Part shown: positions 44,266 to 64,000 of the stretch, in pieces
Position numbering within the stretch: the stretch's first letter is position 1
Layout of the letters: each line of letters opens with the position of its first letter
DNA from: Paenibacillus sp. sptzw28
GTDB lineage: Bacteria; Bacillota; Bacilli; Paenibacillales; Paenibacillaceae
Assembly (NCBI RefSeq): GCF_019550795.1
Contig: NZ_CP080545.1
Span: 3,754,001 to 3,818,000 of the forward strand
DNA: 64,000 bases
Reading direction: 5' to 3'
Translations under genes and position numbers: made by a program
Notes under the pieces: generated by a model
Told to the model about the DNA's origin: nothing
Databases searched by the model: none
Seen by the model: only the letters and a program-made list of their open reading frames with translations

Positions 44266-44387
44266 AAGCACCGGCTTAGATAACTCCTATCTTAGCCGGT
44301 GCAGGGTTGTCCGCTGAATCCGCTTTCTCGAAAATGCTTCTTGCGGACGAGGGTCGTAAACCCCGATGAGTGAATGCGGTGTTATAA
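44266..44387 (-). repeat. attC-like site A, left end lost
   Basis: Begins inside hairpin I (CACCGGCTTAGATA...) at the IS junction and runs to right core GTTATAA. Left core and left arm are gone. GTTATAA matches the TTATAAC of site B across the 44421 gene. Confidence 0.85.
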
Positions 44388-44420
44388 GATGTCTCGACCC
44401 TTCTGAACTTCCTACAAAAA

Positions 44421-44660
44421 TCATTTCTCTTTTTGGTTTTCCATTTGGTTTATCTTACCTAATCTAAGCGCAATTCCTGATAAGATATTTAATATTAAAG
44501 CAATGCAATAGGACCCAAAAACCCATTTTATTAAACGAGAACCATTTATACTAACATTTCCGTCTATTGATTGACTCCAGGAATCAAAAATTCCTATTAT
44601 TATTCCTAAGATTAAAATCGCTACCGCATTAAATCTTGTAGATGAATACAAGCTTTTCAT
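44421..44660 (-). CDS. Cassette gene: small membrane protein
   Basis: 79 residues with two hydrophobic helices (FNAVAILILGIIIGIFDSW and WVFGSYCIALILNILSGIAL) and a basic C-terminal tail. AAAGAGGGAG precedes the ATG. Unknown function. Most distal cassette of the array; its site A is truncated, so it could no longer be excised. Confidence 0.7.
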   Translation of the reverse strand: MKSLYSSTRFNAVAILILGIIIGIFDSWSQSIDGNVSINGSRLIKWVFGSYCIALILNILSGIALRLGKINQMENQKEK

Positions 44661-44723
44661 TTTTTTCTCCCTCTTTCAATCTGTTCAAAAAAAATGTTTT
44701 GATTGGGTTTATGCCGAGATTTC

Positions 44724-44888
44724 TTATAACGTCTCTTGCATTCACGAACCCTCACTGCCTTAAGCGACCAACGGGAGCGGCCGCGATGCGGTTAGGCAGT
44801 GCAGGGTTGTCCGCTGAATAATCTCCCCCGAAAATGCTCCCCGCGAATCGAGGGCCGGATGGCCCGATGCGTGAATGCTGTGTTAGGT
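44724..44888 (-). repeat. attC-like site B
   Basis: 165 bp, long hairpin-I form. Cores TTATAAC and GTTAGGT; arms GCATTCACG / CGTGAATGC. GTTAGGT matches ACCTAAC of site C. Confidence 0.92.
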
Positions 44889-44914
44889 GAAGTTGACGCT
44901 TCTTTGAAATGACC

Positions 44915-45622
44915 TCAAAGTTGTCCCCCGTGGAATATTTTCAATATAAAATCACTTTCTGGTACACCTAGTTCTCTATAAGATTTTAAAAAAGCTGAAT
45001 TATTATAAGGTACTTCTACGAGCTGAGGTTCAACACGATGATTGTCCAATTTGATAATCCCATAGCGAGCAACTGGTTTGTGAAAACAACCTAATGCCCC
45101 TGGGTTAAAATAAACTGCCTTAGGAGTAATGTACTCGTGCACAACATGGTGATGTCCAAAACAAACCAATCTGTAATCAGCATTCTTGTAAAATTGATCT
45201 AATTTCTCTTCAGTTGGTTCCTGATCTATAGGCGTAAAATTGTTCATCTGGTCTAGATGGTAATGAATAAAGAGCTCCTCTTCCGTCTCTATCTTAATAG
45301 GCATGTTATCCAAAAATCTTACGTATTCTTCTTCCATTCGTTCTGCTAACCACTTATGATGATACCGGACATGCTCATGTCCTTCAGGTGTTTGTCGATC
45401 ATAAAATGCAGCAACTACAGCATTATCATGATTGCCCTTAACATAAGAGATATTGTCTTGATTTAACAACAATTTAATAACTTCGTTACTATTAGGCCCG
45501 ATTCCAACAAGATCACCAAGACAAAAAATGTGGTCGATGTCTTTATTCCGTATATCATTTAATACAGCACTTAAAGCCGGGCTGTTCCCATGGATATCTG
45601 TAATGATTGCATAATTCTTCAT
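44915..45622 (-). CDS. Cassette gene: calcineurin-like metallophosphoesterase
   Basis: Two-metal phosphoesterase of the YfcE/MJ0936-like group. Motifs in order: YAIITDIHGNSPAL, CLGDLVGIGPNS, VKGNHDNAVV, and LVCFGHHHVVHEY. About 236 residues. The ATG at 45622 follows AGGTGTGAGCAT. Flanked by matching cores of sites B and C, so a complete cassette. Substrate unknown; relatives act on phosphodiesters. Confidence 0.9.
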   Translation of the reverse strand: MKNYAIITDIHGNSPALSAVLNDIRNKDIDHIFCLGDLVGIGPNSNEVIKLLLNQDNISYVKGNHDNAVVAAFYDRQTPEGHEHVRYHHKWLAERMEEEYVRFLDNMPIKIETEEELFIHYHLDQMNNFTPIDQEPTEEKLDQFYKNADYRLVCFGHHHVVHEYITPKAVYFNPGALGCFHKPVARYGIIKLDNHRVEPQLVEVPYNNSAFLKSYRELGVPESDFILKIFHGGQL

Positions 45623-45653
45623 ATGCTCACACCTATCATCTTTCGTCAATTTC

Positions 45654-45800
45654 ACCTAACGTTCTTGTCTTCCTGACGTCGATTCCCCTTAGATAGCTCT
45701 TATCTTAGGGGAATCGATGTGTCTGCCTGAATTCGCTTCCTTGAAATCCCTCGGGCAGACCGAGCGGCGACAGCGGCGAAGCTGGAACACGGTGTTATGA
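45654..45800 (-). repeat. attC-like site C
   Basis: 147 bp, short hairpin-I form with the variant arm pair GTTCCTG / CAGGAAC (here TTCCTGAC / CTGGAAC). Cores ACCTAAC and GTTATGA; the latter matches TCATAAC of site D. Confidence 0.92.
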
Positions 45801-46328
45801 GATGTCTCTGCCTTCTTCGAGTTCGCTAAATTCGTGCTTTAGTATTGACATTATGATCAGTGATTCGAACTTGTCCCCGTTCTTAATACATTCTCTTAAT
45901 ATCCCTTCCTGTTTGAACCCTAAAGATAAGTAAATGTGCTTTGCTCTTTCGTTATATTCCTTTACATCGAGCCATAGACGATGTGCGTGAAGGTATTCAA
46001 ATATGTATTTCAAAATTGTGTTCAATGCTTCTTTTCCATACCCTTTAGACTTCTCTGAAATTGTAATTCGAATTAACTCAACATTATCATGGAGGCTGTT
46101 AAGACCTGCCAAAATAATATATCCAACTAATTTTTTATCTTTATCTTCTATGATTATGTGCTTCTTGTCTGGATCATTTAATGTCTTAACATGTTGATCC
46201 TTTGACCAAGGAATGATGTATCTGATGTTTTCACTATCATTCTCGATTGATAATACTGTATCAAGATCACAGGAAACTGTCTGCCTATATGTCAATCTTT
46301 CAGAATGTAAAGATAAATCAGACTTCAC
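45795..46328 (-). CDS. Cassette gene: GNAT acetyltransferase, RimJ/RimL type
   Basis: Begins LHSERLTYRQTVSCDLDTV; acetyl-CoA loop in IRITISEKSKGYGKEALNTI, then HRLWLDVKEYNERAKHIYLS and LGFKQEGILRE. 177 residues. The last codons and TAA stop lie in the core of site C (45795-45800). Substrate unknown; protein N-termini or small amines are usual. Confidence 0.9.
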   Translation of the reverse strand: MKSDLSLHSERLTYRQTVSCDLDTVLSIENDSENIRYIIPWSKDQHVKTLNDPDKKHIIIEDKDKKLVGYIILAGLNSLHDNVELIRITISEKSKGYGKEALNTILKYIFEYLHAHRLWLDVKEYNERAKHIYLSLGFKQEGILRECIKNGDKFESLIIMSILKHEFSELEEGRDIS

Positions 46329-46364
46329 TGTTTCTACTCCTCTCTGATGTTTTGCAGAGATATC

Positions 46365-46459
46365 TCATAACATTCTTGCATTCACGAACCCTCACCGGCT
46401 TAGATAGCTCTTATCTTAGCCGGTGCAGGGTTGTCCGCTGAATCAGCTTCTTCGAAAGA
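46365..46459 (-). repeat. attC-like site D, right half deleted
   Basis: Left core TCATAAC, arm and hairpin I are intact. The site stops in the loop of the second hairpin (CTTCTTCGAAAG), where it joins the next gene directly. No right core. Confidence 0.85.
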
Positions 46460-46464
46460 CCAAA

Positions 46465-46836
46465 TCAACATAGAATAAAAAATATCAACGTAAAGAGACA
46501 TACAATAATTATTCTAAAAGACTTTTTCTTTAATTTAACTATATTCTTGATAACCAAAGATATCGATAGTACCAAAAGAATTAATCCAGTATATAATGAG
46601 AAAGGTTCTGGGTAGTTCCACCCTCTCAACTGTTCTCGATCTAGTTCATAATACAACTCAGCTGAATAATTATCCGGTTCAGCAAAGTAATCAATAATGT
46701 CATCACTATAATCAAATCTTTCTTCCAAAATATACTCTTCATTAGAAAAGCCAAATAGTTCACTGATTGAGAGTGATGATTTTATCTGTGTACCAATAAT
46801 GCCACCACTAATCAGCAGAACTATTATTATTAACAA
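46465..46836 (-). CDS. Cassette gene: membrane protein with extracytoplasmic loop
   Basis: 123 residues: N-terminal helix (LIIIVLLISGGIIGTQI), an acidic region to about residue 75 and two C-terminal helices (YTGLILLVLSISLVIKNIV and FRIIIVCLFTLIFFILC). Unknown. A deletion removed half of site D, so the annotated end abuts the remnant; the natural C terminus may have been altered. Confidence 0.6.
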   Translation of the reverse strand: MLIIIVLLISGGIIGTQIKSSLSISELFGFSNEEYILEERFDYSDDIIDYFAEPDNYSAELYYELDREQLRGWNYPEPFSLYTGLILLVLSISLVIKNIVKLKKKSFRIIIVCLFTLIFFILC

Positions 46837-46918: not shown

Positions 46919-47178
46919 GAATAACGTTCTGTTTATTGCAAAGTACAAGTGCCTAGTTTTGCAGCCATTGATTATGCAGTAAAAAGTAACTGGTTTGATA
47001 TGGAGAGGTGGGCATGATAGGCTTACTAGCATCTGCGAAGCCTGTGGCTTCGCCCCTTCGCAAGGAATCATGCCCATAGAGGCTCCATGTCAAACCTATG
47101 CATAAACTTCACTTTTTGCTGCATATAGGCAAAATTCATCGCTGCAAAACTCAGCACTTTTGGTTTGCCAAATACAAC
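46919..47178 (-). repeat. Site E: ORF-less cassette made of one long inverted repeat
   Basis: From GAATAAC to ATACAAC, about 260 bp with arms of roughly 110 bp. AAGTGC...GTTTTGCAGC, ATGCAG.AAAAAGT, GGTTTGA.ATGGAG and GGGCATGAT recur inverted on the right side. The tip is GCGAAGCC / GGCTTCGC. Sequence and single-hairpin shape differ from the other sites. No gene inside. Confidence 0.7.
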
Positions 47179-47326
47179 GTTCTTGTGTTCACGACGTCCC
47201 ACTGGCTTAAGTGAGCGACAGCGAGCGGGTCCGACGGACTTAGCCAGTGCGGATGTGTCCGGAGCGCTAAGTCACCGGACCAAGGGGGCAGATTGTAGCT
47301 CCCGCAGCGTGAATACGGTGTTATCG
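47172..47326 (-). repeat. attC-like site F
   Basis: 155 bp, long form, with GTGTTCACG / CGTGAATAC arms. Cores ATACAAC and GTTATCG. GTTATCG does not match the ACCTAAC of site G, the one clear exception in the array. Confidence 0.88.
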
Positions 47327-47353
47327 GATGTCGAGGTCATCATTGAGTAATCT

Positions 47354-47920: not shown

Positions 47921-47952
47921 TTAGGTTTTTATATATGTCATATTACGATTTC

Positions 47953-48116
47953 ACCTAACGTTCAGGCATTCACGAACCCTCACTGGCTTAAGTGACCGAA
48001 GGGAACGGCCGCGACGCGGTTAGACAGTGCAGGGTTGTCCGCTAATTTAGCCGCTTTTGGAAATGCCTCTTGCGGACCGAGGGCGATAGCCCCGATGCGT
48101 GAATGCGGTGTTATAG
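47953..48116 (-). repeat. attC-like site G
   Basis: 164 bp, long form. Cores ACCTAAC and GTTATAG; GTTATAG matches CTATAAC of site H. Confidence 0.92.
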
Positions 48117-48839
48117 GATGTCAGCGCCTTCCTCGATATGCTGAGACTTCTTGTTTTCTTGAATCTTTTGTTTAATTCGAACTGATTTGTTTAAATGTAA
48201 GAAGAGATGCCTCGTTGCCGGCATAAGAATTAATCCAGCTACTGTCTTCCTTCCCCAATATTCAAGCAGCCATGCCGATTCTTTTTTAACAGCAAATTGT
48301 TCTTCAAGTAATTTTAATCTCTCCGGTTCAACCTTTCGTTTAAAATCTCCAGGTTGTAAATTAGAAACAATATCTCGAGTTTTTTGTCCAACATCTACTC
48401 GGTATGACAATAATTCAGAAATATCAATATTGGTACTTAGGTCAGAGACCTCATTCTCCGTCATTTCATTACCTGAATGAACATAATTCACCTTAAGTTT
48501 CTTGTGCCAAGAACCCAAATGAAAAATCTGCTCTGCACCATTTACCAATACATTCATTGTCATATCCTCTATTCGAGTGATATGCCATATATGCCAGGCA
48601 ATGGAATTCCTTGTATCTGGCGCTAAAACAGGGTATTCCCGAACTGTAACTTCCTTTAAATCCTTAAACAATTCATCTTCCAAAGTTGTAGTCGTTGAAT
48701 TACTCATTTTTGATGAATGCAACAAACTATGATTAATTAAAAATAAGTTAACGGCCGTGTTGTGTTCTGAAGGACGTGTAATGATGCTTGTCAGTTTTTT
48801 GTGGTTCGCATTCCACAATCTTTTTTGTAATAAGTCCAA
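48111..48839 (-). CDS. Cassette gene: DinB-like protein
   Basis: Four-helix DinB/YfiT-type protein. SIAWHIWHITRIEDMTMNVL contains the metal-binding His pair, and ATRHLFLHLNKSVRI the late His. About 242 residues. I favour TTG at 48839, with AAAGGGTGG upstream. Stop TAA lies in the core of site G; the ending GADIL is the same as in the 53729 gene because site flanks encode it. Family members act as thiol-dependent or detoxifying enzymes; function unproven. Confidence 0.8.
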   Translation of the reverse strand: MDLLQKRLWNANHKKLTSIITRPSEHNTAVNLFLINHSLLHSSKMSNSTTTTLEDELFKDLKEVTVREYPVLAPDTRNSIAWHIWHITRIEDMTMNVLVNGAEQIFHLGSWHKKLKVNYVHSGNEMTENEVSDLSTNIDISELLSYRVDVGQKTRDIVSNLQPGDFKRKVEPERLKLLEEQFAVKKESAWLLEYWGRKTVAGLILMPATRHLFLHLNKSVRIKQKIQENKKSQHIEEGADIL

Positions 48840-48883
48840 TAATACCACCCTTTAATGTTGCTTTATTTATTTGCGCTGATTTC

Positions 48884-49042
48884 CTATAACGTTCTTGCAT
48901 TCACGAACCCTCACTGGCTTAAGGCGACCAACGGGAGCCAGGTCGGACTTAGCCAGTGCAGGGTTGCCTGCTGATTCCGCTTTCTCGAAAATTCCTCTGC
49001 AGACCAAAGGCGTCAGCCCGCCGCGTGAATGCGGTGTTATCG
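48884..49042 (-). repeat. attC-like site H
   Basis: 159 bp, long form. Cores CTATAAC and GTTATCG; GTTATCG matches CGATAAC of site I. Confidence 0.92.
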
Positions 49043-49062
49043 GATGTTACTGTCATCTTGAA

Positions 49063-49518
49063 TTAACTCTCAAAAAATGGTCTTATAAGTTCTTCATCAA
49101 TTTCAATTATTCTTGCAATGGTATTCATTCCAAGGCCTTCATTTATTGCATTTAAAATAATTTTCACTTTTATTGTTCCTTCTCTTATTGTCTCCTTACT
49201 AAATCTATCGAACTGTAAAACATCATCCTCAACTTCCCCATTCAAATTAAACATCATTCTATATTCTCCTATATTGCTGCCAAGATACAGGACGTTAAGA
49301 TTACAGTTGACCAGATCTAAGTAGCAATTACTATGTGTTAATTGAATGGACCGCAGTTCTGTCTTGATTAATTTAAGATTAGAATTCCCCATAAAGGTAT
49401 CATAAAACTCGGCTCTGTGCTCTTTCTTCCAATTATTCAAGTAATTTCGGAATCCACTTTCAGTCCTTGAGACTACTTGGTTCCTTTCGGACCATTCAAT
49501 TAATTGTACAGTGTCCAT
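49063..49518 (-). CDS. Cassette gene: hypothetical protein
   Basis: 151 residues starting MDTVQLIEWSERNQVVSRTE, soluble. AAAGGAATATACA precedes the ATG. The C-terminal stretch IREGTIKVKIILNAINEGLG, IDEELIRPFFES looks helical. I recognise no family. Confidence 0.65.
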   Translation of the reverse strand: MDTVQLIEWSERNQVVSRTESGFRNYLNNWKKEHRAEFYDTFMGNSNLKLIKTELRSIQLTHSNCYLDLVNCNLNVLYLGSNIGEYRMMFNLNGEVEDDVLQFDRFSKETIREGTIKVKIILNAINEGLGMNTIARIIEIDEELIRPFFES

Positions 49519-49561
49519 TGTATATTCCTTTTTGGTTTTATTTATGTATTACAGTAATTTC

Positions 49562-49710
49562 CGATAACGTTCTTGCATTCACGAACCCTCACCGGCTTAG
49601 ATAGCTCTTATCTTAGCTGGTGCAGGGTTGTCCGCTGAATCCGCTACTTTAGAAGATACTTCTCGCGGACCAATGGGCGTTAGCTCCGATGCGTGAATGC
49701 GGTGTTATAT
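49562..49710 (-). repeat. attC-like site I
   Basis: 149 bp, short form. Cores CGATAAC and GTTATAT. Partner core is lost because site J's left core is damaged. Confidence 0.92.
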
Positions 49711-49731
49711 GAAGTCAGCCACTTCCTCGAA

Positions 49732-50193
49732 TTACTCACAAACAGCTTTTCTATACTGTTCTATTAAGTCTTTAATAAGTATTCCATCAATTTTCATTCC
49801 TTCAATATTAGAGTTTTTAAGCTCAACATTGCTTAAATTGCAAGTATCAAATATTGCTGTACTCAAGTCACTCTTCTTAAATATTACAGGCTCAACATTA
49901 ACCCATCCGTCAGTTCCAGGCTCTTCATTTAAGTGACTAACCTTTGCTTCAGGACGAACTATGTTCTCGAATAAAGTTCCACCCATCTGAATCATATTTA
50001 TATGTACATTAGAAAAGTAAATGTGCTCCCACTTCGAGTTAACAAAATTCGTATGCGCCAGAGAAGTATCCCTCATGTCTATACCATGAAAATCTGAACC
50101 CTTAAAACAAACCATATGAATTTGTTCGTTTCTAATATCCTGAAGTTCTAAACCATTCTTGGAATCCATCATTTTCTTCTCGGTAAGAGCCAT
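49732..50193 (-). CDS. Cassette gene: pentapeptide-repeat-like protein
   Basis: 153 residues with degenerate pentapeptide spacing: FKGSDFHGIDMRDTSLAHTN, then FKKSDLSTAIFDTCNLSNVE and LKNSNIEGMKI. Such proteins form a right-handed beta-helix; some (Qnr, McbG) protect gyrase. The repeat run is short and interrupted, so activity is open. GGGAGGTAGACGTAT precedes the ATG. Confidence 0.75.
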   Translation of the reverse strand: MALTEKKMMDSKNGLELQDIRNEQIHMVCFKGSDFHGIDMRDTSLAHTNFVNSKWEHIYFSNVHINMIQMGGTLFENIVRPEAKVSHLNEEPGTDGWVNVEPVIFKKSDLSTAIFDTCNLSNVELKNSNIEGMKIDGILIKDLIEQYRKAVCE

Positions 50194-50240
50194 ATACGTC
50201 TACCTCCCGTGATATTTAATTTTTTATTCTTTGGCTGATT

Positions 50241-50385
50241 TCATCATTCTTGTGTTCCTGACGACGATTCCCTTTAGATAGCTCTTATCTTAGGGGAATC
50301 GATGTGTCTGCCTGAATTCGCTTCCTTGATATTCCTCTGGCAGACCGAGCGGCGTCAGCCGCGAAGCAGGAACACGCTGTTAGGC
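50241..50385 (-). repeat. attC-like site J, left core damaged
   Basis: 145 bp, short form with GTTCCTG / CAGGAAC arms. The left core has lost about five bases (TTTCATCATTCTTG in place of TTTC-NNN-TAACGTTCTTG). Right core GTTAGGC matches GCCTAAC of site K. Confidence 0.88.
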
Positions 50386-50403
50386 GAAGCCATCCTGAGT
50401 TAC

Positions 50404-50880
50404 TTACAAAATTTCTTTCTTCATCTTAATTCCAGCAATCTCATTACCCCCATAATCATTCATGATCTTTATTTCAAAGGGTTTAAATCCTATCTTATTA
50501 TAAAGTAAAAGGGCTCCTGTATTGGTATTGTGACAAACTAGTCTTAATTCTTGAACTTCTAATTCCTTCCTTGCTCGCTCAATCATTAAATTTACTAGAT
50601 ATTTACCTGCACCTTTACCCCTATATCTTGGATTAATTATTACATTTCCTAACCAGCAATGATCTCCAGTAACCAGGTCATATAGATTGCTATAGCCTAC
50701 TATTTCATCACAATATTCAATTACCGTAGGCAATAGGCGCGTCATGGACACTTCATATAATTGTTCAGGTTTTACAGGAAATAGCCCTCTCGGAAACATA
50801 TAAAACAATTCAACTTTATTCTGTGGAAACGTGGCAATAATATTAAAGTCGTCTTGATTTGTGTTTCTATACTTATACAA
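50404..50880 (-). CDS. Cassette gene: GNAT acetyltransferase
   Basis: 158 residues. Acetyl-CoA motif A is LGNVIINPRYRGKGAGKYLV, motif B VCHNTNTGALLLYNKIGFKP. Start is TTG at 50880 after AAGGAGGTGAACTT. Substrate unknown. Its cassette cannot be released on its own because the left core of its site is damaged. Confidence 0.9.
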   Translation of the reverse strand: MYKYRNTNQDDFNIIATFPQNKVELFYMFPRGLFPVKPEQLYEVSMTRLLPTVIEYCDEIVGYSNLYDLVTGDHCWLGNVIINPRYRGKGAGKYLVNLMIERARKELEVQELRLVCHNTNTGALLLYNKIGFKPFEIKIMNDYGGNEIAGIKMKKEIL

Positions 50881-50951
50881 AAGTTCACCTCCTTGGCGCC
50901 GGACATAAAAAGTTTAATGTATTTATAGGATGTTTACATCTTGATGGTTTC

Positions 50952-51114
50952 GCCTAACGTTCTTGTATTCACGAACCCTCACTGGCTTAAGGGGCGCCAG
51001 CCCCGGGTCCGACGGACTTAGCCAGTGCAGGGTTGTCCGACTGATCCAGCTTCCCCGAATTCCCCCTGCCGGACCGAGGGCCGGATGGCCCGATGCGTGA
51101 ATATGGTGTTAGGC
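50952..51114 (-). repeat. attC-like site K
   Basis: 163 bp, long form. Cores GCCTAAC and GTTAGGC, fitting the classical RYYYAAC/GTTRRRY pattern exactly. GTATTCACG / CGTGAATAT arms. Matches GCCTAAC of site L. Confidence 0.95.
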
Positions 51115-51132
51115 GATGCCGCGTTGAATTGC

Positions 51133-51645
51133 TTACAACCTTTCATTCGTGATTTTCAATTCATATTTCTTTTGAGTTTTACTTTGTCCTTCTATTGTTT
51201 CGATCTTTTCTTCTGATTCTTTAAATCCGCTCTTTTCATAAAATGATCTTCCTATATGATTCTCTTTCGCTACCCAAGCAATCAATTTCTTTATTGGCTT
51301 TAAAACTTGAATAAATTCCTGAATGAAGCCATTTCCTATTCCAATTTTATGATATTCAGGTCGTACATAGATTCTTAGTAATTCATAATCCTCGTCATTC
51401 ACTTGACTTGTCTGAGCAAATCCAACGACTTCATTATTATATTCAGCAATTAGAAATTTTCGTTTAGTACTTTGAAGATCTCTTTCTACAGATCTAATTA
51501 GGTTCTCACGAGAATAAGCTTTACTTAGAAAATTTTGAATGAAATCTTTTGAGTAAATGCCCCCATATGTGAAATTCCATGTTTCATGGGCTATGGATTG
51601 AATGTGTGGGATATCCTCACATGATACAAATCTAATTGTAATCAT
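51133..51645 (-). CDS. Cassette gene: GNAT acetyltransferase
   Basis: 170 residues: ITIRFVSCEDIPHIQSIAHE, motif A LLRIYVRPEYHKIGIGNGFI and motif B KENHIGRSFYEKSGFKESEE. AAAGAAGGATAACCAA precedes the ATG. Second of three to four acetyltransferases in the array; not closely similar to the 50404 gene. Confidence 0.9.
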   Translation of the reverse strand: MITIRFVSCEDIPHIQSIAHETWNFTYGGIYSKDFIQNFLSKAYSRENLIRSVERDLQSTKRKFLIAEYNNEVVGFAQTSQVNDEDYELLRIYVRPEYHKIGIGNGFIQEFIQVLKPIKKLIAWVAKENHIGRSFYEKSGFKESEEKIETIEGQSKTQKKYELKITNERL

Positions 51646-51692
51646 TTGGTTATCCTTCTTTCGTAATATAGTATTTGCTCTTCAGCGGTTTC

Positions 51693-51841
51693 GCCTAACG
51701 TTCTTGTATTCACGATGTCCATTCCCCTTAGATAGCTCTTATCTTAGGGGAATGGATATGTCCGCCTGATTCACTTCTCCGAAATACATCTGGCGGACCG
51801 AGGGGCAGCGAATGCTCCGATGCGTGAATATGGTGTTAGCT
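51693..51841 (-). repeat. attC-like site L
   Basis: 149 bp, short form. Cores GCCTAAC and GTTAGCT; GTTAGCT differs by one base from the complement of site M's GGCTAAC. Confidence 0.92.
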
Positions 51842-51865
51842 GAAGTTATCATCTTCTTCGAATCC

Positions 51866-52696: not shown

Positions 52697-52732
52697 CCCT
52701 TCACCTTCTTTGTAATGTCTTATGATAATTTC

Positions 52733-55420: not shown

Positions 55421-55441
55421 GAAGTCGACGACTCCACTGAA

Positions 55442-55942: not shown

Positions 55943-55958
55943 TTCTTTCGTCGATTTC

Positions 55959-56153: not shown

Positions 56154-56693
56154 GATGTTCTCGCCTTCTCTGAAATAACCCACACCAATTGTCTTTACCT
56201 TATCAAGAAGCCTTCTTACATGCTTCGGTGATTTCAAAACTATAATCTTCTTATCTTGATATTCCATTAGCTTTTCCATAATTCCTGGTATTCTTGTCTT
56301 CTTAAAATTCCAGACCCACTTAATAAATTCAACATCTAAACTCTCAGGACAGTTTTCATTTAGATCTGGTCTTGTCTTACCGTGATACATGATTCTTCTT
56401 TTAATTACCCTATAAACAGTTATCCATCTTGAAAAATCTAAGAGTATAATTACATCCGCCTGTTTCATTCTTATATCATGTGTTCTTTCATAGTTTCCAT
56501 CAATAATCCACGATTCTTCCTGTACAAGCTTTTCTTGAAAATTATCCCACTCATCATTTGGTGTTGGTATCCATCCAGGTCTCCAATAGTAAGCATCTAA
56601 ATGATGTACAGGAAAATGTAGTATTTCTCCAAGTTGCCTTGCAAAAGTGGATTTACCTGCTCCACCAGACCCAATGATCATAATTCGCTTCAT
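56148..56693 (-). CDS. Cassette gene: P-loop kinase, FlaR/topology-modulation-like
   Basis: Walker A IMIIGSGGAGKSTFARQLGE at the N terminus, then HHLDAYYWRPGWIPTPN, WIIDGNYERTHDIRM and VIILLDFSRWITVYRVIKRR, the layout of adenylate-kinase-like 'DNA topology modulation' proteins. 181 residues. The ATG at 56693 follows GGAGAAGTTCG. TAA stop in the core of site Q. Substrate unknown. Confidence 0.85.
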   Translation of the reverse strand: MKRIMIIGSGGAGKSTFARQLGEILHFPVHHLDAYYWRPGWIPTPNDEWDNFQEKLVQEESWIIDGNYERTHDIRMKQADVIILLDFSRWITVYRVIKRRIMYHGKTRPDLNENCPESLDVEFIKWVWNFKKTRIPGIMEKLMEYQDKKIIVLKSPKHVRRLLDKVKTIGVGYFREGENIS

Positions 56694-56730
56694 CGAACTT
56701 CTCCTATGCAATTGGTTTTGCGAGAATTTC

Positions 56731-56894
56731 TCATAACGTTTTTGTATTCACGAACCCTCACTGGCTTAAGCCGCGTTAGCGGCGGGTCGTAAGACTTAGC
56801 CAGTGCAGGGTTGTTCGCCTGACCTTACATCATTGCAATTGCCTCGGGCGAACCAAGGAGCGTTAGCGACGCAGCGTGAAATACGGTGTTATAT
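56731..56894 (-). repeat. attC-like site R
   Basis: 164 bp, long form. Cores TCATAAC and GTTATAT; matches ATATAAC of site S across the IS-split VOC cassette. Confidence 0.92.
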
Positions 56895-56922
56895 GATGCT
56901 CCCGACCTCTTGAGTTACTTTC

Positions 56923-57143: not shown

Positions 57144-57440
57144 GTGTCGAACATGACGAAAAAATACGATAGAGACTTCAAGATACAAACGATCCGAATG
57201 ATCCAAGAGGAAGGGAAGCCGGTGGCGCAGGTAGCCCGCGAGCTCGGCATCAGTGAGAATACCCTGTATCGCTGGATGTCAGAATTTAAACAGGAAGGCA
57301 AACAGGCCTTTCCTGGGAGTGGAAATCTAAAGCCCGATGAGAAAGCAGCGCGTGAACTTCAGAAGCGTATTCGCGACCTGGAAGAGGAAAACGAGATCTT
57401 AAAAAAGGCTATGCACTACTTTGCAAAAGACCGGCGCTGA
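57144..57440 (+). CDS. IS3-family OrfA
   Basis: 98 residues: helix-turn-helix GKPVAQVARELGISENTLYR and leucine-zipper-like LQKRIRDLEEENEILKKAMH. The slippery string AAAAAAG near 57397-57403 allows a -1 shift into orfB to make the full transposase. Confidence 0.92.
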   Translation: MSNMTKKYDRDFKIQTIRMIQEEGKPVAQVARELGISENTLYRWMSEFKQEGKQAFPGSGNLKPDEKAARELQKRIRDLEEENEILKKAMHYFAKDRR

Positions 57441-57487
57441 TCTATTCCTTCATTCATGATCATCGCTTCAAGCTCCGTGTCGCAAAG

Positions 57488-58309
57488 ATGTGTGCTCAAT
57501 TTGACGTTTCTCGAAGCGGCTACTATGCATGGCAGAAAAATAAAGACAAGCAAACCAAGCGGAGTACACGTCGAAAAAAGTTGGAGCAGTGCATCCGCCA
57601 GGTTTTCTTAAACTCCCGCCGTCTGTACGGTAGCCGGAAGATCAAGGAGTCGCTGGAACAGCAAGGTGTTCATGTATCAGGAAAGACGGTTGCGCGGATC
57701 ATGAAGGAACTGGGCTTGAAATCCCGGACCGTTAAGAAATACAAAGCAACGACCAACTCCAAGCACAATCTCCCGGTTCAAGACAATGTGTTGGACCGAC
57801 AGTTTTCTGCAGATGCCCCCAATAGTAAATGGGTGGCCGATATTACCTATGTCCCGACAAGCGAGGGCTGGCTTTATCTGGCCAGTATTATGGATTTATA
57901 CAGCCGAAAGATCGTCGGATTCCACATGGATGATCGCATGACCAAGGACCTTGTCCTAAAAGAGCTTGACCGGGCCTATAGCCTTCAGAGACCTAACGGT
58001 CCCGTCCTGCATCATTCTGATCGCGGCAGCCAGTATGCTTCGCTTGACTATCAAGCGCGACTGGATAAATACCAGATGCAAGGCAGTATGAGCCGCAAGG
58101 GTAACTGCTATGACAATGCGTGCATCGAATCCTTCCACAGTGTGCTAAAGAAAGAACTCATTTACTTGGAGAAATTCAAGACTCGCTCGCAAGCCAAAAA
58201 AGCAATTTTTGAGTATATTACATGCTTCTACAACGGAAAACGAATCCATTCATCCATCGGCTACAAAACACCTAACCAGCACGAACGTCAGTACCGATCT
58301 GCAGCGTAA
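57488..58309 (+). CDS. IS3-family OrfB transposase
   Basis: DDE integrase: WVADITYVPTSEGWLYL (Asp), LHHSDRGSQYAS (Asp), NACIESFHSVLKKEL (Glu). All three acidic residues are present. The frame is open upstream into orfA (LIYSFIHDHRFKLRVAKMC), as expected for an OrfAB fusion made by frameshifting. Confidence 0.95.
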   Translation: MCAQFDVSRSGYYAWQKNKDKQTKRSTRRKKLEQCIRQVFLNSRRLYGSRKIKESLEQQGVHVSGKTVARIMKELGLKSRTVKKYKATTNSKHNLPVQDNVLDRQFSADAPNSKWVADITYVPTSEGWLYLASIMDLYSRKIVGFHMDDRMTKDLVLKELDRAYSLQRPNGPVLHHSDRGSQYASLDYQARLDKYQMQGSMSRKGNCYDNACIESFHSVLKKELIYLEKFKTRSQAKKAIFEYITCFYNGKRIHSSIGYKTPNQHERQYRSAA

Positions 58310-58598: not shown

Positions 58599-58648
58599 GT
58601 TTTTAGTCCCTTCTTATTTTTATTTAGAATTTGGTATTCGGGAGTTTC

Positions 58649-58811
58649 ATATAACGTTCTTGCATTCACGAACCCTCACCGACTTAAGCGAACGTAGTGA
58701 GCGGCCGCGATGCGGTTAGTCGGTGCAGGGTTGTCCGCTGAATCAGCTTCCTAGAAATGCCTCCCGCGGACCGAGGGCCGAATGGCCCGATGCGTGAATG
58801 CTGTGTTATCT
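58649..58811 (-). repeat. attC-like site S
   Basis: 163 bp, long form. Cores ATATAAC and GTTATCT; matches AGATAAC of site T. Confidence 0.92.
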
Positions 58812-58831
58812 GATGCTGGTGGCTTCCCGAG

Positions 58832-59350
58832 TTACTTACTCAGGGTCCTTAATATATTCTCTCGGTATTCAGTATCCTTCTCTTTAAATTCAAATATATA
58901 ACTCTTAACTGAAACATTCATGTACGCTTCACAATACAATCCCATTTCATCGTTATCATCAAAAAAGACCTTAAATTTTATATCTTCAAATGCAATATTT
59001 CTTGGATCCCCTTCTAATGGAAAACATGTAAATGATATCTCGTCTTCAAACTGTAACTCACCATTAAATCCATAAAGCTCTAACAAGACCTTAAGAAATG
59101 CATCCGATTCCTTTCCTATTGATTTCAAAGTAATACCCTTAAAAGAAAAGGCGTCTCGATTTATATCCCCGTTATCCCATCCGGGTATCAGATCCGAATT
59201 TATCAATACATCAAAACCAACTATTTCATCTTTGTATTGACCATACACACGAAAATAGTTTCTATCATCTCTTCGTTGAAATTCCACGATGTCAAATTCA
59301 AGATCCTGAAAATCTTCCTCAGTGTTCTGATTTATTTGTCTAAATTTCAT
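58832..59350 (-). CDS. Cassette gene: hypothetical acidic protein
   Basis: 172 residues, soluble, acidic, with alternating beta-type segments (YFRVYGQYKDEIVGFDVLIN, IAFEDIKFKVFFDDNDEMGL). Resembles small immunity-type proteins in composition only; no family recognised. Confidence 0.65.
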   Translation of the reverse strand: MKFRQINQNTEEDFQDLEFDIVEFQRRDDRNYFRVYGQYKDEIVGFDVLINSDLIPGWDNGDINRDAFSFKGITLKSIGKESDAFLKVLLELYGFNGELQFEDEISFTCFPLEGDPRNIAFEDIKFKVFFDDNDEMGLYCEAYMNVSVKSYIFEFKEKDTEYRENILRTLSK

Positions 59351-59379
59351 TTAATCTTGTCCGCCCTTCCGCCAGTTTC

Positions 59380-59542
59380 AGATAACGTTCTTGCATTCAC
59401 GAACCCTCACTGGCTTAAGGCGACCAACGGGAGCCGGGTCCAACGGACTTAGCCAGTGCAGGGTTGTCTGCTGATTCCGCTTCCTCGACAATTCCTCTGC
59501 AGACCAAGGGCGTCAGCCCGATGCGTGAATGCGGTGTTATCT
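59380..59542 (-). repeat. attC-like site T
   Basis: 163 bp, long form. Cores AGATAAC and GTTATCT; matches AGATAAC of site U. Confidence 0.92.
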
Positions 59543-60046
59543 GATGGAGTCGACTTCTTTGAAACCACTCTCACCATAGTTCTTTATTGTCTCTCCTAAT
59601 TTCTTCTTACTTTTCTCATCCCATACATAACTCAATTCGAATGTACCTGGCTGAAAAAATAATGGAAATCTCCGTTTAAACCAATCTTGCATAGGTAAGT
59701 TCAATGCATCCTTGATCTCTACCCATAACAATTCCCCTTCTGGTGGATTTTTCAACAATTCTCCTTCAAATTCTGTAGCTAAATAATTAAATACCATGTA
59801 CCTTAGTCCTTGTCTTGGATCACAGAACTCTTGAAGTCCCTTATATGTAATATCAGTAACAATCAAGCCCGTTTCCTCTTTTACTTCTCGAATAGCTCCA
59901 TTTACTATACTTTCTGGAAAATCCACCTTACCTCCCGGTGCTATATATCCTGGAAAACCTAATTTATCCGGTCTATTCATTAGAAGAACTTTTGATCCTT
60001 CTTGCACCATACACATTGTATATATCTTATGATTTACATCAGTCAT
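59537..60046 (-). CDS. Cassette gene: Nudix hydrolase, MutT type
   Basis: Nudix box GGKVDFPESIVNGAIREVKE followed by ETGLIV, matching Gx5Ex7REUxEExGU. N-terminal YTMCMVQEGSKVLLMNRPDK is typical of 8-oxo-dGTP-type hydrolases. 169 residues. GGAGTGGGCTTTGT precedes the ATG. Stop TAA is in the core of site T. Confidence 0.92.
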   Translation of the reverse strand: MTDVNHKIYTMCMVQEGSKVLLMNRPDKLGFPGYIAPGGKVDFPESIVNGAIREVKEETGLIVTDITYKGLQEFCDPRQGLRYMVFNYLATEFEGELLKNPPEGELLWVEIKDALNLPMQDWFKRRFPLFFQPGTFELSYVWDEKSKKKLGETIKNYGESGFKEVDSIR

Positions 60047-60136
60047 ACAAAGCCCACTCCATTTCTTTTGAGTTCAATATCGCCTTTTGCTTCGTGGGAT
60101 CACTTTCTGTTTTTAATAATGTCTTTCGACTCTTTC

Positions 60137-60282
60137 AGATAACGTTCTTGTGTTCCTGACGTCGATTACCCTTAGATAGCTCTTATCTTAGGGTAATCGA
60201 TGTGTCTGCCTGAATCTGCTTCTCGAAACTCCTCGGGCAGACCGAGCGGCGATAGCCGCGAAGCTGGAACACAGTGTTATGT
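60137..60282 (-). repeat. attC-like site U
   Basis: 146 bp, short form with GTTCCTG / CTGGAAC arms. Cores AGATAAC and GTTATGT; matches ACATAAC of site V. Confidence 0.92.
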
Positions 60283-60318
60283 GATGTTCGGCGCTTCTTT
60301 GAAATACTTGCATAACGA

Positions 60319-60771
60319 TTACTTATATGGTTCTTCGTGTCTCCAAGGGATAAAGGTTTCAAAATGTAATTGAATAATTGGTTCTGGAAAACCTCTTGGT
60401 ACACTTGCGATATCCTCACTGCTAAAACCAAATTCAAAATTATCGATCTTGATTAACTCTGCTTTATTCCATTCTTCAGTTATTTTTCTCGGTCCTTCAA
60501 GGATTCTGCCCTTTATATGATAAAATCCTGCATAATGGATATCCCCTTTCTCATTCGGACCAAATTCCATAAACTCCCCTTCTTTACTAGGTTCAATTCC
60601 CAGTTCACGAAAAAAATCCATAAGTTGGTTACTCATAAATGCGCTGTGTAATCTATAGTTCTGACAGTAAGTACACTTGCAATCATCGGGTATATCGTGG
60701 TTAAAGTATTCACTTGTCTTTTTATGATCAATCTCAATAGTCCAACTACCAAACTTGAGTGTTATATCCAT
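60319..60771 (-). CDS. Cassette gene: hypothetical protein
   Basis: 150 residues from ATG at 60771 (GGGAGATTCAAG upstream). It contains DDCKCTYCQNYRLHSAFMSN, a CxxC pair that could bind zinc, and ends LHFETFIPWRHEEPYK. A longer open frame upstream reads through site V and is not a plausible start. Family not recognised. Confidence 0.7.
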   Translation of the reverse strand: MDITLKFGSWTIEIDHKKTSEYFNHDIPDDCKCTYCQNYRLHSAFMSNQLMDFFRELGIEPSKEGEFMEFGPNEKGDIHYAGFYHIKGRILEGPRKITEEWNKAELIKIDNFEFGFSSEDIASVPRGFPEPIIQLHFETFIPWRHEEPYK

Positions 60772-60816
60772 CTTGAATCTCCCAAACTTAATGTTTTTAA
60801 GGGTTTGCCAAATTTC

Positions 60817-61000
60817 ACATAACGTTCTTGCATTCCCGACGCCCCACCACCTTAAAGGAGCACGGAGCCAGAGGCGAAGCCGGTTCCCGACTGGCTGCGA
60901 TGCAGTTAGGTGGTGCGGGTGTGTCGCCTGAATAATCTGACAGTTATAGCTTCTGGCGACCAAGGGCCGCAAGGCCCGCTGCGGGAATGCGGTGTTAGAT
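60817..61000 (-). repeat. attC-like site V
   Basis: 184 bp, enlarged first hairpin. Arms GCATTCCCG / CGGGAATGC show a compensated A to C / T to G change. Cores ACATAAC and GTTAGAT; matches ATCTAAC of site W. Confidence 0.92.
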
Positions 61001-61025
61001 GATGCCACGCACATCTTCGAGATAC

Positions 61026-61598
61026 TTACAAATATTCCTTTAATTCATCAATTAAGTTCTGTTTGTTTGCTTCAATATAGTCAATCAAATTATTAAAAAT
61101 ATTCTCTTCCTGATTGTTAATATATAAGTTTTCAGCTTCTTGTTGGATTCTATCAAGCAACTCACTATCGGTAATTCCATGGGTTTGTATAAAGTTATTG
61201 ATTTGATATTCCTTCAAATTATGTAGATTAGTGTTTAAATCGTGCGTCTTCAATCCGAAGTTAGATAGGCTCTTCTTAATTTTATTTAGAGCTTTTGCGT
61301 CTCTTACAGCACCTATTCTCTCTAGAACCTCAATTGTCTCATCAATGAACTTACCAGTTGAGTTTTCTAAATATCCAAAAATACCGTTCATATTTAACTC
61401 GGTATCAAAATCAATTAGTAATACACAGTCTCTAATTAATATAGGAATCTTGGAAAGAACCTCTTTATCCCTGACTAAATAAAAATCTTCTTGGTAAATA
61501 CCCTCACATATATGCTCTACTATCTCACTGGCTGGAACATTTAATAGATTCGATTTATTCGGTAACAATTTCCCCACGATTAGTTGAAGATTATTCAT
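61026..61598 (-). CDS. Cassette gene: DUF4375 (DMP19-like) protein
   Basis: 190 residues from ATG at 61598 with GGGAGGATAGTA upstream. The region LIDFDTELNMNGIFGYLENS, then FIDETIEVLERIGAVRDAKA matches DUF4375/DMP19-like proteins, though the usual GGF is NGI here. Function unknown in bacteria. Confidence 0.7.
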   Translation of the reverse strand: MNNLQLIVGKLLPNKSNLLNVPASEIVEHICEGIYQEDFYLVRDKEVLSKIPILIRDCVLLIDFDTELNMNGIFGYLENSTGKFIDETIEVLERIGAVRDAKALNKIKKSLSNFGLKTHDLNTNLHNLKEYQINNFIQTHGITDSELLDRIQQEAENLYINNQEENIFNNLIDYIEANKQNLIDELKEYL

Positions 61599-61646
61599 TA
61601 CTATCCTCCCTGAATTACGATCAATAATACTCTTTAGCGTGGTTTC

Positions 61647-61808
61647 ATCTAACGTTCTTGCATTCACGAACCCTCACTGGCTTAAGTGACCGTAGGGAAC
61701 GGGTCGTCAGACTTAGCCAGTGCAGGGTTGTCTGCCTGAATTCGCTTCCTCGAAATCGCCTCGGGCAGACCAAGGGCGTCAGCCCGCCGCGTGAATGCGG
61801 TGTTATGT
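61647..61808 (-). repeat. attC-like site W
   Basis: 162 bp, long form. Cores ATCTAAC and GTTATGT; matches ACATAAC of site X. Confidence 0.92.
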
Positions 61809-61839
61809 GATGCCAGTGCCCTCTTCGAGTTACCACCAA

Positions 61840-62304
61840 CTATCTTCTAAGCAATTCGGTTTTACTCTTCTTTAAATCTATAAATACAGGTTTCTGCACC
61901 TTATTTATTGTTTCTATATTAATATCTTCAATTCTCATAAATTCTAGTCTCAATGATTCACTATTACTATCCTTATAAATTAGCGTCTTTCCGTCCTCAG
62001 ATAGTTTACCATCCAATTCCGCCTCGACATTAAATAAAAACATTACAAAAACTACTTCATTGCCATCAGGGTATGTATATTGCATTCTTGCACCAGTATA
62101 AATTGAATACAACTGATAACTCTTTACATCTAGTCCTGTTTCTTCTCTCACCTCTCTAATCATGGTCTCCTCAATAGCTTCACCAGCGTTCATTCCTCCA
62201 CCTGGCAAACCCCAATCACCATAATCAGATCTTTTCTGTAATAAGATTCGGTCAAATTTATCTTTGATAATTGCTCCACCAGTAACAATGATATGTCTAC
62301 TCAT
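61840..62304 (-). CDS. Cassette gene: Nudix hydrolase
   Basis: Nudix box GGGMNAGEAIEETMIREVRE followed by ETGLDV. 154 residues from ATG at 62304 (AAAAGGACTGAAATC upstream). N-terminal IIVTGGAIIKDKFDRILLQK fits the ADP-ribose/NTP pyrophosphohydrolase branch. Not closely similar to the 59537 Nudix gene, so independently acquired. Confidence 0.92.
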   Translation of the reverse strand: MSRHIIVTGGAIIKDKFDRILLQKRSDYGDWGLPGGGMNAGEAIEETMIREVREETGLDVKSYQLYSIYTGARMQYTYPDGNEVVFVMFLFNVEAELDGKLSEDGKTLIYKDSNSESLRLEFMRIEDINIETINKVQKPVFIDLKKSKTELLRR

Positions 62305-62349
62305 GATTTCAGTCCTTTTATGGTTTAAAATATGACTTGCACTGGTTTC

Positions 62350-62545
62350 ACATAACGTTCTTGTATTCACGAACCCTCACTGCCTTAAACGACCGAAGGG
62401 AGTGGCCGCGACGCGGTTAGGCAGTGCAGGGTTGTCCGGCTGAATTGGCTTCTCTGCTACTGAATCATCTTCTTCGAAACCGCTTCCTCCAGCTTCGGCC
62501 GGACCAAGGAGCCGGAGGCGACGCAGCGTGAATACGGTGTTATAG
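62350..62545 (-). repeat. attC-like site X, first site after attI
   Basis: 196 bp, long form with enlarged second hairpin, close to site Q. Cores ACATAAC and GTTATAG; GTTATAG matches CTATAAC at the attI border (63200-63206). Confidence 0.92.
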
Positions 62546-62590
62546 GATGTCAACGCCTTCTCCGAACTACATTCAAGTAACTAGTTTTTT

Positions 62591-63151
62591 TCACCTTGTC
62601 TTTGCAAAAATCGTTGTATCTCTTAAACTGCTTTCATCTGTAGATAAACTATTATTCTTTAATATTCCTTCTAATCTGTACCCCAAACGTTCTGGAATTG
62701 CTTTACTTCTATAGTTTAAAGAATCACATCGAATTTCTATTCGTCTTGCATTTAATTCTCTAAAAGCAAAATCAGTTATCCCTTGAACACCTTCGGTCAT
62801 TAGCCCTTTACCACTAACCCGTGAATCAATCCAATATCCAATTTCAAACTTAGGAATTGCCCAATTAATTCTATGTAATCCAGATGAACCTACAAATTCA
62901 TTCGTTTCTTTATTAAAAATTAATAGCCTTAGGTCTTCTCTCTTCAAGAACTGTATATGAGATTCCCTTATGTTTTCTTCAACTTTTTGCTCATTTTGTT
63001 CATAACGAGCAAATGGTAACCAATCTTTCAGTTCATTAATTGATGCTTGTATGCTTTCAAAAACGACTTTGCCATCACCGGGAAGTGGCATTCTAATGAG
63101 TAATCTATCTGTTGTAAATTGATGTGGAAAATCCAACAATATCGGATTCAC
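62591..63151 (-). CDS. Cassette gene: GNAT acetyltransferase, RimJ/RimL type (first cassette)
   Basis: About 186 residues from GTG at 63151 with GGAGTGATTTAT upstream. LLDFPHQFTTDRLLIRMPLP, IGYWIDSRVSGKGLMTEGVQ (acetyl-CoA loop) and NARRIEIRCDSLNYRSKAIP, then RLGYRLEGIL. Nearest to the recombinase, so probably the most recent insertion. Substrate unknown. Confidence 0.9.
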   Translation of the reverse strand: MNPILLDFPHQFTTDRLLIRMPLPGDGKVVFESIQASINELKDWLPFARYEQNEQKVEENIRESHIQFLKREDLRLLIFNKETNEFVGSSGLHRINWAIPKFEIGYWIDSRVSGKGLMTEGVQGITDFAFRELNARRIEIRCDSLNYRSKAIPERLGYRLEGILKNNSLSTDESSLRDTTIFAKTR

Positions 63152-63199
63152 ATAAATCACTCCAATCACTTAAATGTTCTTATGACTTGCGTTGATTTC

Positions 63200-63300
63200 C
63201 TATAACGTCTTATTTGCGAAATTCGTAAAATAATCTTATTTTATTAGTATTTGTGAACTTCGGGAATATCTCGATTTATGATGTTTTTGTGTAGGAATAG
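63200..63300 (-). other. Putative attI region
   Basis: Between recombinase stop and first cassette. It holds the junction core CTATAAC (minus GTTATAG) with the same TTTC flank as cassette borders, but no attC fold. Adjacent is an imperfect inverted repeat, TTATTTGCGAA / TTCGTAAAATAA (63210-63233), a possible recombinase binding site. AT-rich, no gene. Confidence 0.65.
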
Positions 63301-63307
63301 GACTAAA

Positions 63308-64000
63308 TCAATCATCAATTTGATCAAGAGGACTTTTAATACGTCTGACATCTTTTATACTTACATGAGTATATCGTTCGGTGGTACGAGTACTTTGATG
63401 ACCCAGCAGTTCTTGGATGTACCGAATATCAATGCCTCCTTCTAATAGATGAGTGGCAAATGAATGTCGCAACGAATGTATACTAACCTTCTTTGGTACT
63501 CCGGACGCAACTAAAGCTTGTTCAAAGATTTTTTGAACCGAACGTTCCGTCAGATGCCTCCCCTCGTTTTGTCCTGGAAACATCCATATTTCTGGTTTTT
63601 CTTGATGATAGTAGCGCAGAAATATTTCTAAAGCAGTATCGGATAGAAGGGTAAGCCGATCTTTTCTTCCTTTACCTTGACGAATTCGCAGCGTTTTACG
63701 TTCTTTGTCAAAATCCTGTAATCGTAGACGTACTACCTCACTCACTCGTAATCCTGAAGAATATGTTAAGTATAAAATGGCTTTGTGTTTCAAGTTTCGG
63801 ACTGCTTTTAAGATGAGTATAACTTCATTGAGGGATAAAACATTTGGAAGTTTATGTTCCTTTTTGGGTCTAATATATGGTGCAGATTCATTTTGTTTAA
63901 GAACCTTCTGGAAATAGAACTTTATCGCACTGATTGCTTGATTTACATAGGCATGAGAGCAATTTTTATGTAGCAAATATAGTGAATAGTTGTGAATCGT
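63308..64000 (-). CDS. Tyrosine recombinase, probable cassette integrase (5' end outside window)
   Basis: The C-terminal catalytic domain is complete: Arg in SSGLRVSEVVRLR, Lys in RIRQGKGRKDRLT, HxxR in VSIHSLRHSFATHLLEGG, His in ELLGHQSTRTT and nucleophile Tyr in TERYTHV (codon at 63371-63373). The visible N-terminal part (SHAYVNQAISAIKFYFQKVL) is the core-binding SAM-like domain and stays open to the edge. The stretch between Lys and HxxR is short, without the extra helix usual in IntI, so it looks nearer to XerC/D-type enzymes. Co-directional with the cassettes, immediately upstream of attI. Confidence 0.88.
   Translation of the reverse strand, partial: TIHNYSLYLLHKNCSHAYVNQAISAIKFYFQKVLKQNESAPYIRPKKEHKLPNVLSLNEVILILKAVRNLKHKAILYLTYSSGLRVSEVVRLRLQDFDKERKTLRIRQGKGRKDRLTLLSDTALEIFLRYYHQEKPEIWMFPGQNEGRHLTERSVQKIFEQALVASGVPKKVSIHSLRHSFATHLLEGGIDIRYIQELLGHQSTRTTERYTHVSIKDVRRIKSPLDQIDD

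Follow-up and report, generated by a model that had tools for sequence, protein, structure and literature searches.

A 64,000-nucleotide stretch of the Paenibacillus sp. sptzw28 chromosome (bases 3754001-3818000 of its single 6.10 Mb contig, hereafter the window) carried an array of single-gene cassettes and attC-like sites headed by a tyrosine recombinase. Its sequence makes it highly probable that this is a chromosomal integron-type gene-capture system from a lineage without the integron integrase IntI. The array itself, with its repeats, single small genes, common orientation and head recombinase, was confirmed. The array is best read as belonging to a second integron lineage, one with a recombinase and a site architecture of its own: judged by its anatomy it would function like an integron, while the accepted, IntI-based definition excludes it.

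Array anatomy and complementary cassette ends

Open reading frame (ORF) and repeat listings of the window displayed a minus-strand run of small genes, each followed by a related element. The covariance model, which the original prediction had proposed building from the array sites, was made from 25 aligned elements, all from this genome; its consensus fold comprised 35 pairs, and for 16 of them at least one sequence had both partners changed. At E<=0.01 it returned 38 sites genome-wide. The array (window 44239-62551) accounted for 23, which share one orientation, and a solitary site lay at 24457-24610; the others were ten at about 5.82 Mb, three at about 2.58 Mb and one at about 1.42 Mb. The 24 array sites originally predicted compare with 23 that the model placed there and a 24th, the solitary one, outside the array. 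Sites measured about 145-220 nucleotides (nt), with GTT cores, attC-like R''/L''/L'/R' boxes and, in the fold, three hairpins atop a stem; no Rfam family matched at gathering thresholds. A core half-site lay near 46925, where no recognisable attC was present, and two IS3-like insertions (57144-58309 and 42934-44192, labelled by eye from ORFs) broke the region. The attI-like site adjoined the recombinase gene and probably acts as the insertion point.

In integron cassettes, the R'' box complements the cassette's own start, because both ends meet in the circle. In 20 window cassettes readable at both ends, pairing between the cassette start and the sequence that terminates in R'' covered positions 0-8 and 11-17 and went no further. 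This own-end complementarity spanned 18 nt across the gene, as a folded cassette circle would need. R-box positions 3-8 were matched in 114 of 120 cases (mean 83.6 and maximum 99 over 20,000 permutations) and outer positions 11-18 in 127 of 160 (permutation mean 55.2, maximum 86); positions 19-29 were at chance (61/220, permutation mean 56.8, p 0.20). Automatic pairing in related loci (91 pairs, including pairs that span sites overlooked by the first site finder; 18 loci searched, two yielding none) gave 463/546 and 477/637 matches (within-locus means 362 and 257). With a stricter finder there were 96 pairs, 81 of which were kept at >=12/16 matches by a filter that ignored positions 9 and 10. 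In 80 of the 81 kept cassettes the top strand had an A-C opposition at position 10, which on the bottom strand is a T-G wobble. The bottom strand of the predicted circular site folded better in 77 of the 81 (mean 3.65 kcal/mol) and was favoured in 14 of 16 folded sites of the window alone, so the A-C/T-G position could set strand choice.

Two pairs of orthologous cassettes, aligned and read by hand, had changed at both ends together, at position 4 in YjbR and at positions 5, 6 and 14 in NUDIX, one of these four changes falling in the outer arm. A third pair, the kinase-like gene at 24 kb, had lost its 5' end and was uninformative.

Nine class 1 cassettes, with boundaries chosen without own-end match, served as the comparison set. 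In it, later copies bearing the same name had replaced three repeated cassettes, no site was obtained at seven gene junctions, and some picks (arr-3 and the kept aacA4 copy) may be wrong. Positions 0-8 were paired in 9, 9, 9, 8, 7, 7, 8, 7 and 6 of the nine, positions 11-17 in only 3, 1, 2, 4, 3, 2 and 0, and position 10 was matched in 4/9. The array has the own-end principle in common with integrons; the outer arm and the fixed mismatch were not seen in this small control.

Features of the window were as follows, attC-like sites being covariance-model matches.

63308..64000, minus: tyrosine recombinase, C-terminal 230 amino acids (aa) (PF00589 E 1e-39; full ORF 381 aa, running on to genome C1:3818453)
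63195..63306, minus: attI-like region, core G of GTTATAGG at 63206 (alignment with P. periandrae and P. rigui, likeness ending just past GTTA)
62591..63169, minus: cassette 1, GNAT acetyltransferase (ORF, family match; own-end match 63206/62541)
62344..62551, minus: attC-like site 1 (model match R1)
61840..62370, minus: cassette 2, NUDIX hydrolase, listed ORF beginning within the preceding site (ORF, family match, own-end match)
61641..61814, minus: attC-like site 2
61026..61667, minus: cassette 3, DMP19-like (ORF, family match, own-end match)
60811..61006, minus: attC-like site 3
60319..61014, minus: cassette 4, unknown protein, ORF as listed crossing site 3, gene start probably further in (ORF, own-end match)
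60131..60288, minus: attC-like site 4
59537..60046, minus: cassette 5, NUDIX, both-end changes against a relative in locus L083 (ORF, family match, own-end match)
59374..59548, minus: attC-like site 5
58832..59350, minus: cassette 6, no Pfam or NCBIfam match (ORF, own-end match)
58643..58817, minus: attC-like site 6
58272-58598, minus: probably the cassette 7 gene, interrupted by IS3-like ORFs (ORF)
57144..58309, plus: IS3-like transposase ORFs within cassette 7 (label by eye)
56725..56900, minus: attC-like site 7
56148..56711, minus: cassette 8, 'DNA topology modulation protein' family (NF005994, 247 bits, cut-off 215)
55953..56159, minus: attC-like site 8
55442..55942, minus: cassette 9, no Pfam match and a single weak NCBIfam match far below cut-off (ORF)
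55268..55426, minus: attC-like site 9
54843..55217, minus: cassette 10, YjbR family, both-end change against locus L116 (family match)
54637..54854, minus: attC-like site 10
53729..54598, minus: cassette 11, carbamoyltransferase-like, near-identical copy in the 5.82 Mb array (family match, alignment)
53584..53740, minus: attC-like site 11
52909..53610, minus: cassette 12, Imm33/DUF2314 (family match, own-end match)
52727..52887, minus: attC-like site 12
51866..52753, minus: cassette 13, no Pfam or NCBIfam match (profile search)
51687..51847, minus: attC-like site 13
51133..51645, minus: cassette 14, GNAT (family match)
50946..51120, minus: attC-like site 14
50404..50880, minus: cassette 15, GNAT (family match)
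50237..50391, minus: attC-like site 15, core GTT altered
49732..50193, minus: cassette 16, pentapeptide repeat (family match)
49556..49716, minus: attC-like site 16
49063..49518, minus: cassette 17, no Pfam or NCBIfam match (profile search)
48878..49048, minus: attC-like site 17
48111..48848, minus: cassette 18, DinB_2-like (family match)
47947..48122, minus: attC-like site 18
47164..47332, minus: attC-like site 19, worn, ends of its cassette mismatched
46465..46836, minus: gene with a second copy in the 5.82 Mb array, with another attC there (alignment)
46359..46502, minus: attC-like site 20
45795..46328, minus: cassette, GNAT (family match)
45648..45806, minus: attC-like site 21
44915..45655, minus: cassette, metallophosphoesterase (family match)
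44718..44894, minus: attC-like site 22
44421..44660, minus: cassette, small protein, hydrophobic by eye (ORF)
44239..44393, minus: attC-like site 23, distal end
24457..24610, minus: lone attC-like site after a kinase-like gene at 24618-25214 (label by eye)

Listed ORFs at window 61667, 62370, 53610 and 52753 began with GTG inside the preceding site (MNARTL, MNTRTL, MNATTL and MNAQAL), so translation could start in the site. A TTCGAGGAAG-like motif, noticed by eye, was repeated at two places, upstream of R'' and within the site's second hairpin.

The recombinase, its relatives and their distribution

The head ORF encoded an intact tyrosine recombinase of 381 aa, complete beyond the window edge, oriented as the cassettes and matching PF00589 and a SAM-like domain. 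Its best NCBIfam match, just under the cut-off (211 bits against 220), was NF040815, 'site-specific tyrosine recombinase/integron integrase', which likens it to archaeal XerA; it differs by about 105 extra N-terminal residues and by its adjoining cassette array. The integron integrase model TIGR02249 matched at 191.5 bits (cut-off 265) in two stretches, the middle of the profile being skipped, and the recombinase has 27 residues where the solved chain 2a3v (named IntI4) has 69. The spacing between motifs was 59 residues, against 100 in IntI1. Across the family it was 58-62 in 58 of 60 members (not measurable in the other two), against 100 in six IntI rows, and 58-60 in the tree-set Bacillota and Bacteroidota rows with both motifs. 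Among 120 proteins from an IntI1 query, spacing was 100 in 93, not measurable in nine and different in the rest (73 in seven). The IntI-specific domain of about 41 residues was absent from the window recombinase. The residues that we take to be catalytic were invariant or nearly so in the 60-member alignment, which included the window protein.

Bacillota recombinases, including that of the window, formed their own branch (support 96/93), with Xer rows outside. IntI formed a long branch, placed either inside or beside the array recombinase groups, its position being unsure since the branch was long and IntI diversity low (six rows, all near IntI1). Residues 1 to about 105 constituted an added N-terminal region. 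HARP (PF07443) matched 12 of the 60 family members at E<=0.1 (best 1.5e-5; location within the protein not shown), with no match in the window recombinase itself. A tyrosine recombinase from a Hydrogenophaga plasmid was 36% identical over query residues 78-379; unlike the window protein it has 291 aa and a shorter N-terminus, with an IS91-family transposase beside it and no array.

Like sedentary chromosomal integrons with IntI (Vibrio-type, and the class 1 control), the system displayed a head recombinase, attI, single-gene cassettes in one orientation, the core G^TT and an R'' complementary to the cassette's own start, and its substrate may likewise be a folded bottom strand, as for IntI. 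Unlike them, its recombinase has no IntI-specific domain and points the same way as the cassettes, and its long sites combine three hairpins, 18-nt own-end pairing, an outer arm and the fixed A-C/T-G.

IntegronFinder's recognition of IntI takes PF00589 plus a profile of the IntI-specific domain (PMC9668308), and the same paper calls that domain necessary for integron recombination, crediting Messier and Roy 2001. IntegronFinder 2.0 (PMC9024848) lists for Firmicutes one complete integron (Limnochorda pilosa) and a few clusters of attC sites lacking integron-integrases (CALIN) in several genera; these calls are among the closest known counterparts of the window array. Two further papers report 103 complete Firmicutes genomes without integrons in a 2008 survey (PMC2426708) and name Firmicutes and Bacteroidota among integron-bearing phyla (PMC8618304). 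No description of such Paenibacillus or Cohnella integrons was found in titles and abstract openings of the open-access literature, preprints and most subscription papers lying outside that search.

The recombinase was found at E<=1e-60 in 91 of 295 Paenibacillaceae genomes (13/19 genera) and sites at E<=1e-3 in 229 of 295 (17/19 genera), nine candidates at most being scored per genome. The array, originally thought atypical of Paenibacillus-like genomes, is therefore no oddity in the family. A phylum sample of 299 genomes included 26 with the recombinase (E<=1e-50) and 27 with sites (E<=1e-4); since the best match in the window reached 165 bits and 272 of the 299 genomes had no site match at that threshold, the matches are far beyond chance. 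Both were found together in 11 of the 299, against about 2.3 expected by chance. Nine of these 11 lay outside the family; seven of the nine had a site no more than 15 kb from the recombinase and oriented like it, downstream in six. Seven loci from seven other families (five from the co-occurring set, plus G441 and G565, which had no recombinase match at 1e-50) yielded 31 site matches and 22 neighbouring pairs. Sixteen pairs matched at >=13 of 16 positions, all with A/C at position 10, and the remaining six at 4 to 11, one reaching 13 with another start.

Among 45 recombinase loci, 123 of 125 model matches were in Paenibacillus and Cohnella, 122 of the 123 oriented with the recombinase; the other two were weak. 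In Bacteroidota, the end pattern was present in 4/4 pairs of Christiangramia lutea and 4/6 of Algibacter miyuki (the other two span sites overlooked by the script), with A/C at position 10 in all eight matching pairs; a Wocania locus had too few sites for such a reading. A crude tally of repeats came out empty for 21 of 31 recombinase loci, and most other Bacteroidota loci were blank; the tally was insensitive, being blank also for L116, which has sites.

Related elements were also seen on plasmids and IMG/VR contigs. Plasmid pHH1107 (6004-8060 of the locus) carried, just upstream of tet(X3), a truncated family recombinase with 48% identity over 221 residues; its flanks displayed a partial end pattern, a lead only. 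On a Chryseobacterium plasmid, a related recombinase was followed by four near-identical GTTGGGAAAAATCG elements between genes (9128, 11223, 13604, 16673). Two IMG/VR contigs (L160, L161) encoded a recombinase 50% identical to the window's with attC-like sites behind it, and the end pattern in 1/2 and 1/1 pairs, respectively. The mobilizable P. crassostreae plasmid pPC03, a possible vehicle, harbored one site of partial similarity (73% over 149 bases).

Cassette movement and competing explanations

The carbamoyltransferase-like cassette was present in both the window array and the 5.82 Mb array (99.6% over 1060 bases), the likeness running from the core before the cassette to the GTTA after it. 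The P. periandrae platform, with a recombinase 87% identical, shared 89% identity with that of the window array over 1399 bases, a stretch that starts about 136 bases upstream of the recombinase gene and runs out just past the attI core, and it had different cassettes from attI onward; identical arrays in relatives had been named beforehand as speaking against acquisition. Similarity among three platforms ended just past the GTTA core. A nucleotidyltransferase gene was found in 117/295 family genomes at E<=1e-40. In 32 copies examined (30 returned loci, P. periandrae and L115), the start GTTAG(C/T)CGAAAGAAG was intact in 28 and not in four; 18 of the 28 stood behind attI-like sequence and ten behind mostly differing attC ends, and the shared cassettes broke at GTT. 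The nucleotidyltransferase gene was about 96% identical at the DNA level between P. periandrae and Cohnella silvisoli, the Cohnella copy having lost the cassette start, so genes seem to pass between genera. The break points suggest a cut at G^TT and cassettes that were mobile single-gene units in the past. With the own-end complementarity and the both-end changes, they bear out the acquisition and movement proposed in the original prediction.

Direct repeats beyond chance did not flank the window's own integron. That of P. periandrae lay between 199-base direct repeats (95%; 9512-9710 and 16736-16934 of its locus), which represent the 3' end of a gene judged glycosidase-like by eye; the arrangement looks like the result of an insertion of the whole platform. 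Elsewhere in the window, 24037-25214 held a lone kinase-like cassette with one good and one worn site and no recombinase near, related to a Cohnella lupini cassette (78% over 635 bases). A second family recombinase, 63% identical in part and in two broken frames, was followed by three sites at genome C1:2576693-2581051, and the ten-site array at C1:5816917-5825679 had no recombinase nearby. The dnaA gene was located at 0.27 Mb. The 1.42 and 2.58 Mb arrays read from the plus strand and the 3.80 and 5.82 Mb arrays from the minus, so that with a terminus opposite dnaA all four would run with replication; the sign of GC skew agreed with replication direction at all four.

In the proposed mechanism, the tyrosine recombinase with its added N-terminal region (HARP-like in some family members) would insert circular single-gene cassettes at attI, swap them among attC sites and cut at the core ...AC^GTTA. 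In the cell, the attC bottom strand would adopt a fold read by the recombinase, with three hairpins on a stem made of outer arm, R box and L box. In the circular form, the R box and outer arm would be built from the two ends of the cassette. The fixed A-C mismatch of the top strand, a T-G wobble on the bottom, would together with spacer wobbles make the bottom strand the better folder.

Several observations weigh against this system as described. Class 1 complementarity also extended to about position 8, which leaves only the outer arm and the fixed mismatch as special here; the novelty of long own-end complementarity as such was dropped, two of the first four also reaching positions 12-13. 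One of the 20 window cassettes (47959-47322) had mismatched ends, and four further rows lacked one end. A one-end-only change occurred in the same two hand-read ortholog pairs, and an automatic count over orthologs returned no both-end and 13 one-end changes, an outcome of mis-assigned cassette starts. Of 26 nucleotidyltransferase copies readable at both ends, six had a one-end change at a paired position and none a both-end change, a seventh differing at the free position 9. The 18 attI-like copies of this gene had no recombinase in the 1.5 kb flank and may for that reason be one inherited locus. P. rigui had a 73% identical recombinase with no site match in 11 kb of the locus, and no convincing LexA-like box was found upstream of the window recombinase.

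Among other explanations, a fossil, i.e., a former integron-like system now inherited and decaying, is unlikely. Sites 15 and 19 are worn, a half-site remains at 46925, an IS-like insertion sits in cassette 7 and the 2.577 Mb recombinase is broken into two frames; against this, the window recombinase is full-length, a 99.6% identical cassette lies 2 Mb away and a near-identical cassette gene occurs in many species. The system may still be active. An ordinary IntI integron, merely missed in Bacillota, is very improbable: layout, G^TT core, attI and R-box complementarity are as in integrons and TIGR02249 does match, but below its cut-off and with the profile middle skipped, while the motif spacing, the separate Bacillota branch, and an outer arm and fixed mismatch unseen in the class 1 cassettes all point away from IntI. 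Identity of the window recombinase with IntI was rejected on the absence of the IntI-specific domain. The layout originally predicted holds for an integron-like Bacillota array, but not for an ordinary superintegron, because the recombinase lacks that domain and sits on its own branch.

It is hardly credible that the repeats are a transposing or repetitive extragenic palindromic (REP)-like element spread between genes rather than recombination sites. Sites do occur without a recombinase near (24457-24610 and the 5.82 Mb array), but the array has one orientation, one gene per site and end complementarity across the gene, and shared units span core to core, not repeat to repeat. Neither a repeat-bounded unit nor the random orientation of REP and miniature inverted-repeat transposable elements was seen. 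Just as hard to credit are Xer/pdif-type modules moved by host XerC/XerD. Dif-like sites are short, and pdif modules have no dedicated recombinase. The recombinase does resemble archaeal XerA and Xer models, but the sites are folded, about 145-220 nt long and GTT-cored, with a dedicated recombinase adjoining them in the same orientation; the array was rejected as pdif on both counts.

Significance for integron biology

A gene-capture lineage without IntI would be missed because integrons are searched for via IntI, and such searching may help explain the apparent lack of integrons in Bacillota. We tentatively entertain an old second integron lineage across Bacillota and Bacteroidota, with folded sites and a domain-less recombinase and with the strand marked by A-C (top)/T-G (bottom) instead of extrahelical bases, of whose stock IntI may be a later branch that gained the domain. 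The array allows tests of what IntI and attC require, whether the IntI domain, the extrahelical bases or the R box alone. For the Paenibacillaceae, it points to a family-wide store of cassettes with acetyltransferases, NUDIX, nucleotidyltransferase and many unknown genes. The machinery recurs in many other Gram-positive bacteria and in some Bacteroidota, which suggests that a second lineage of gene-collecting integrons has been overlooked.

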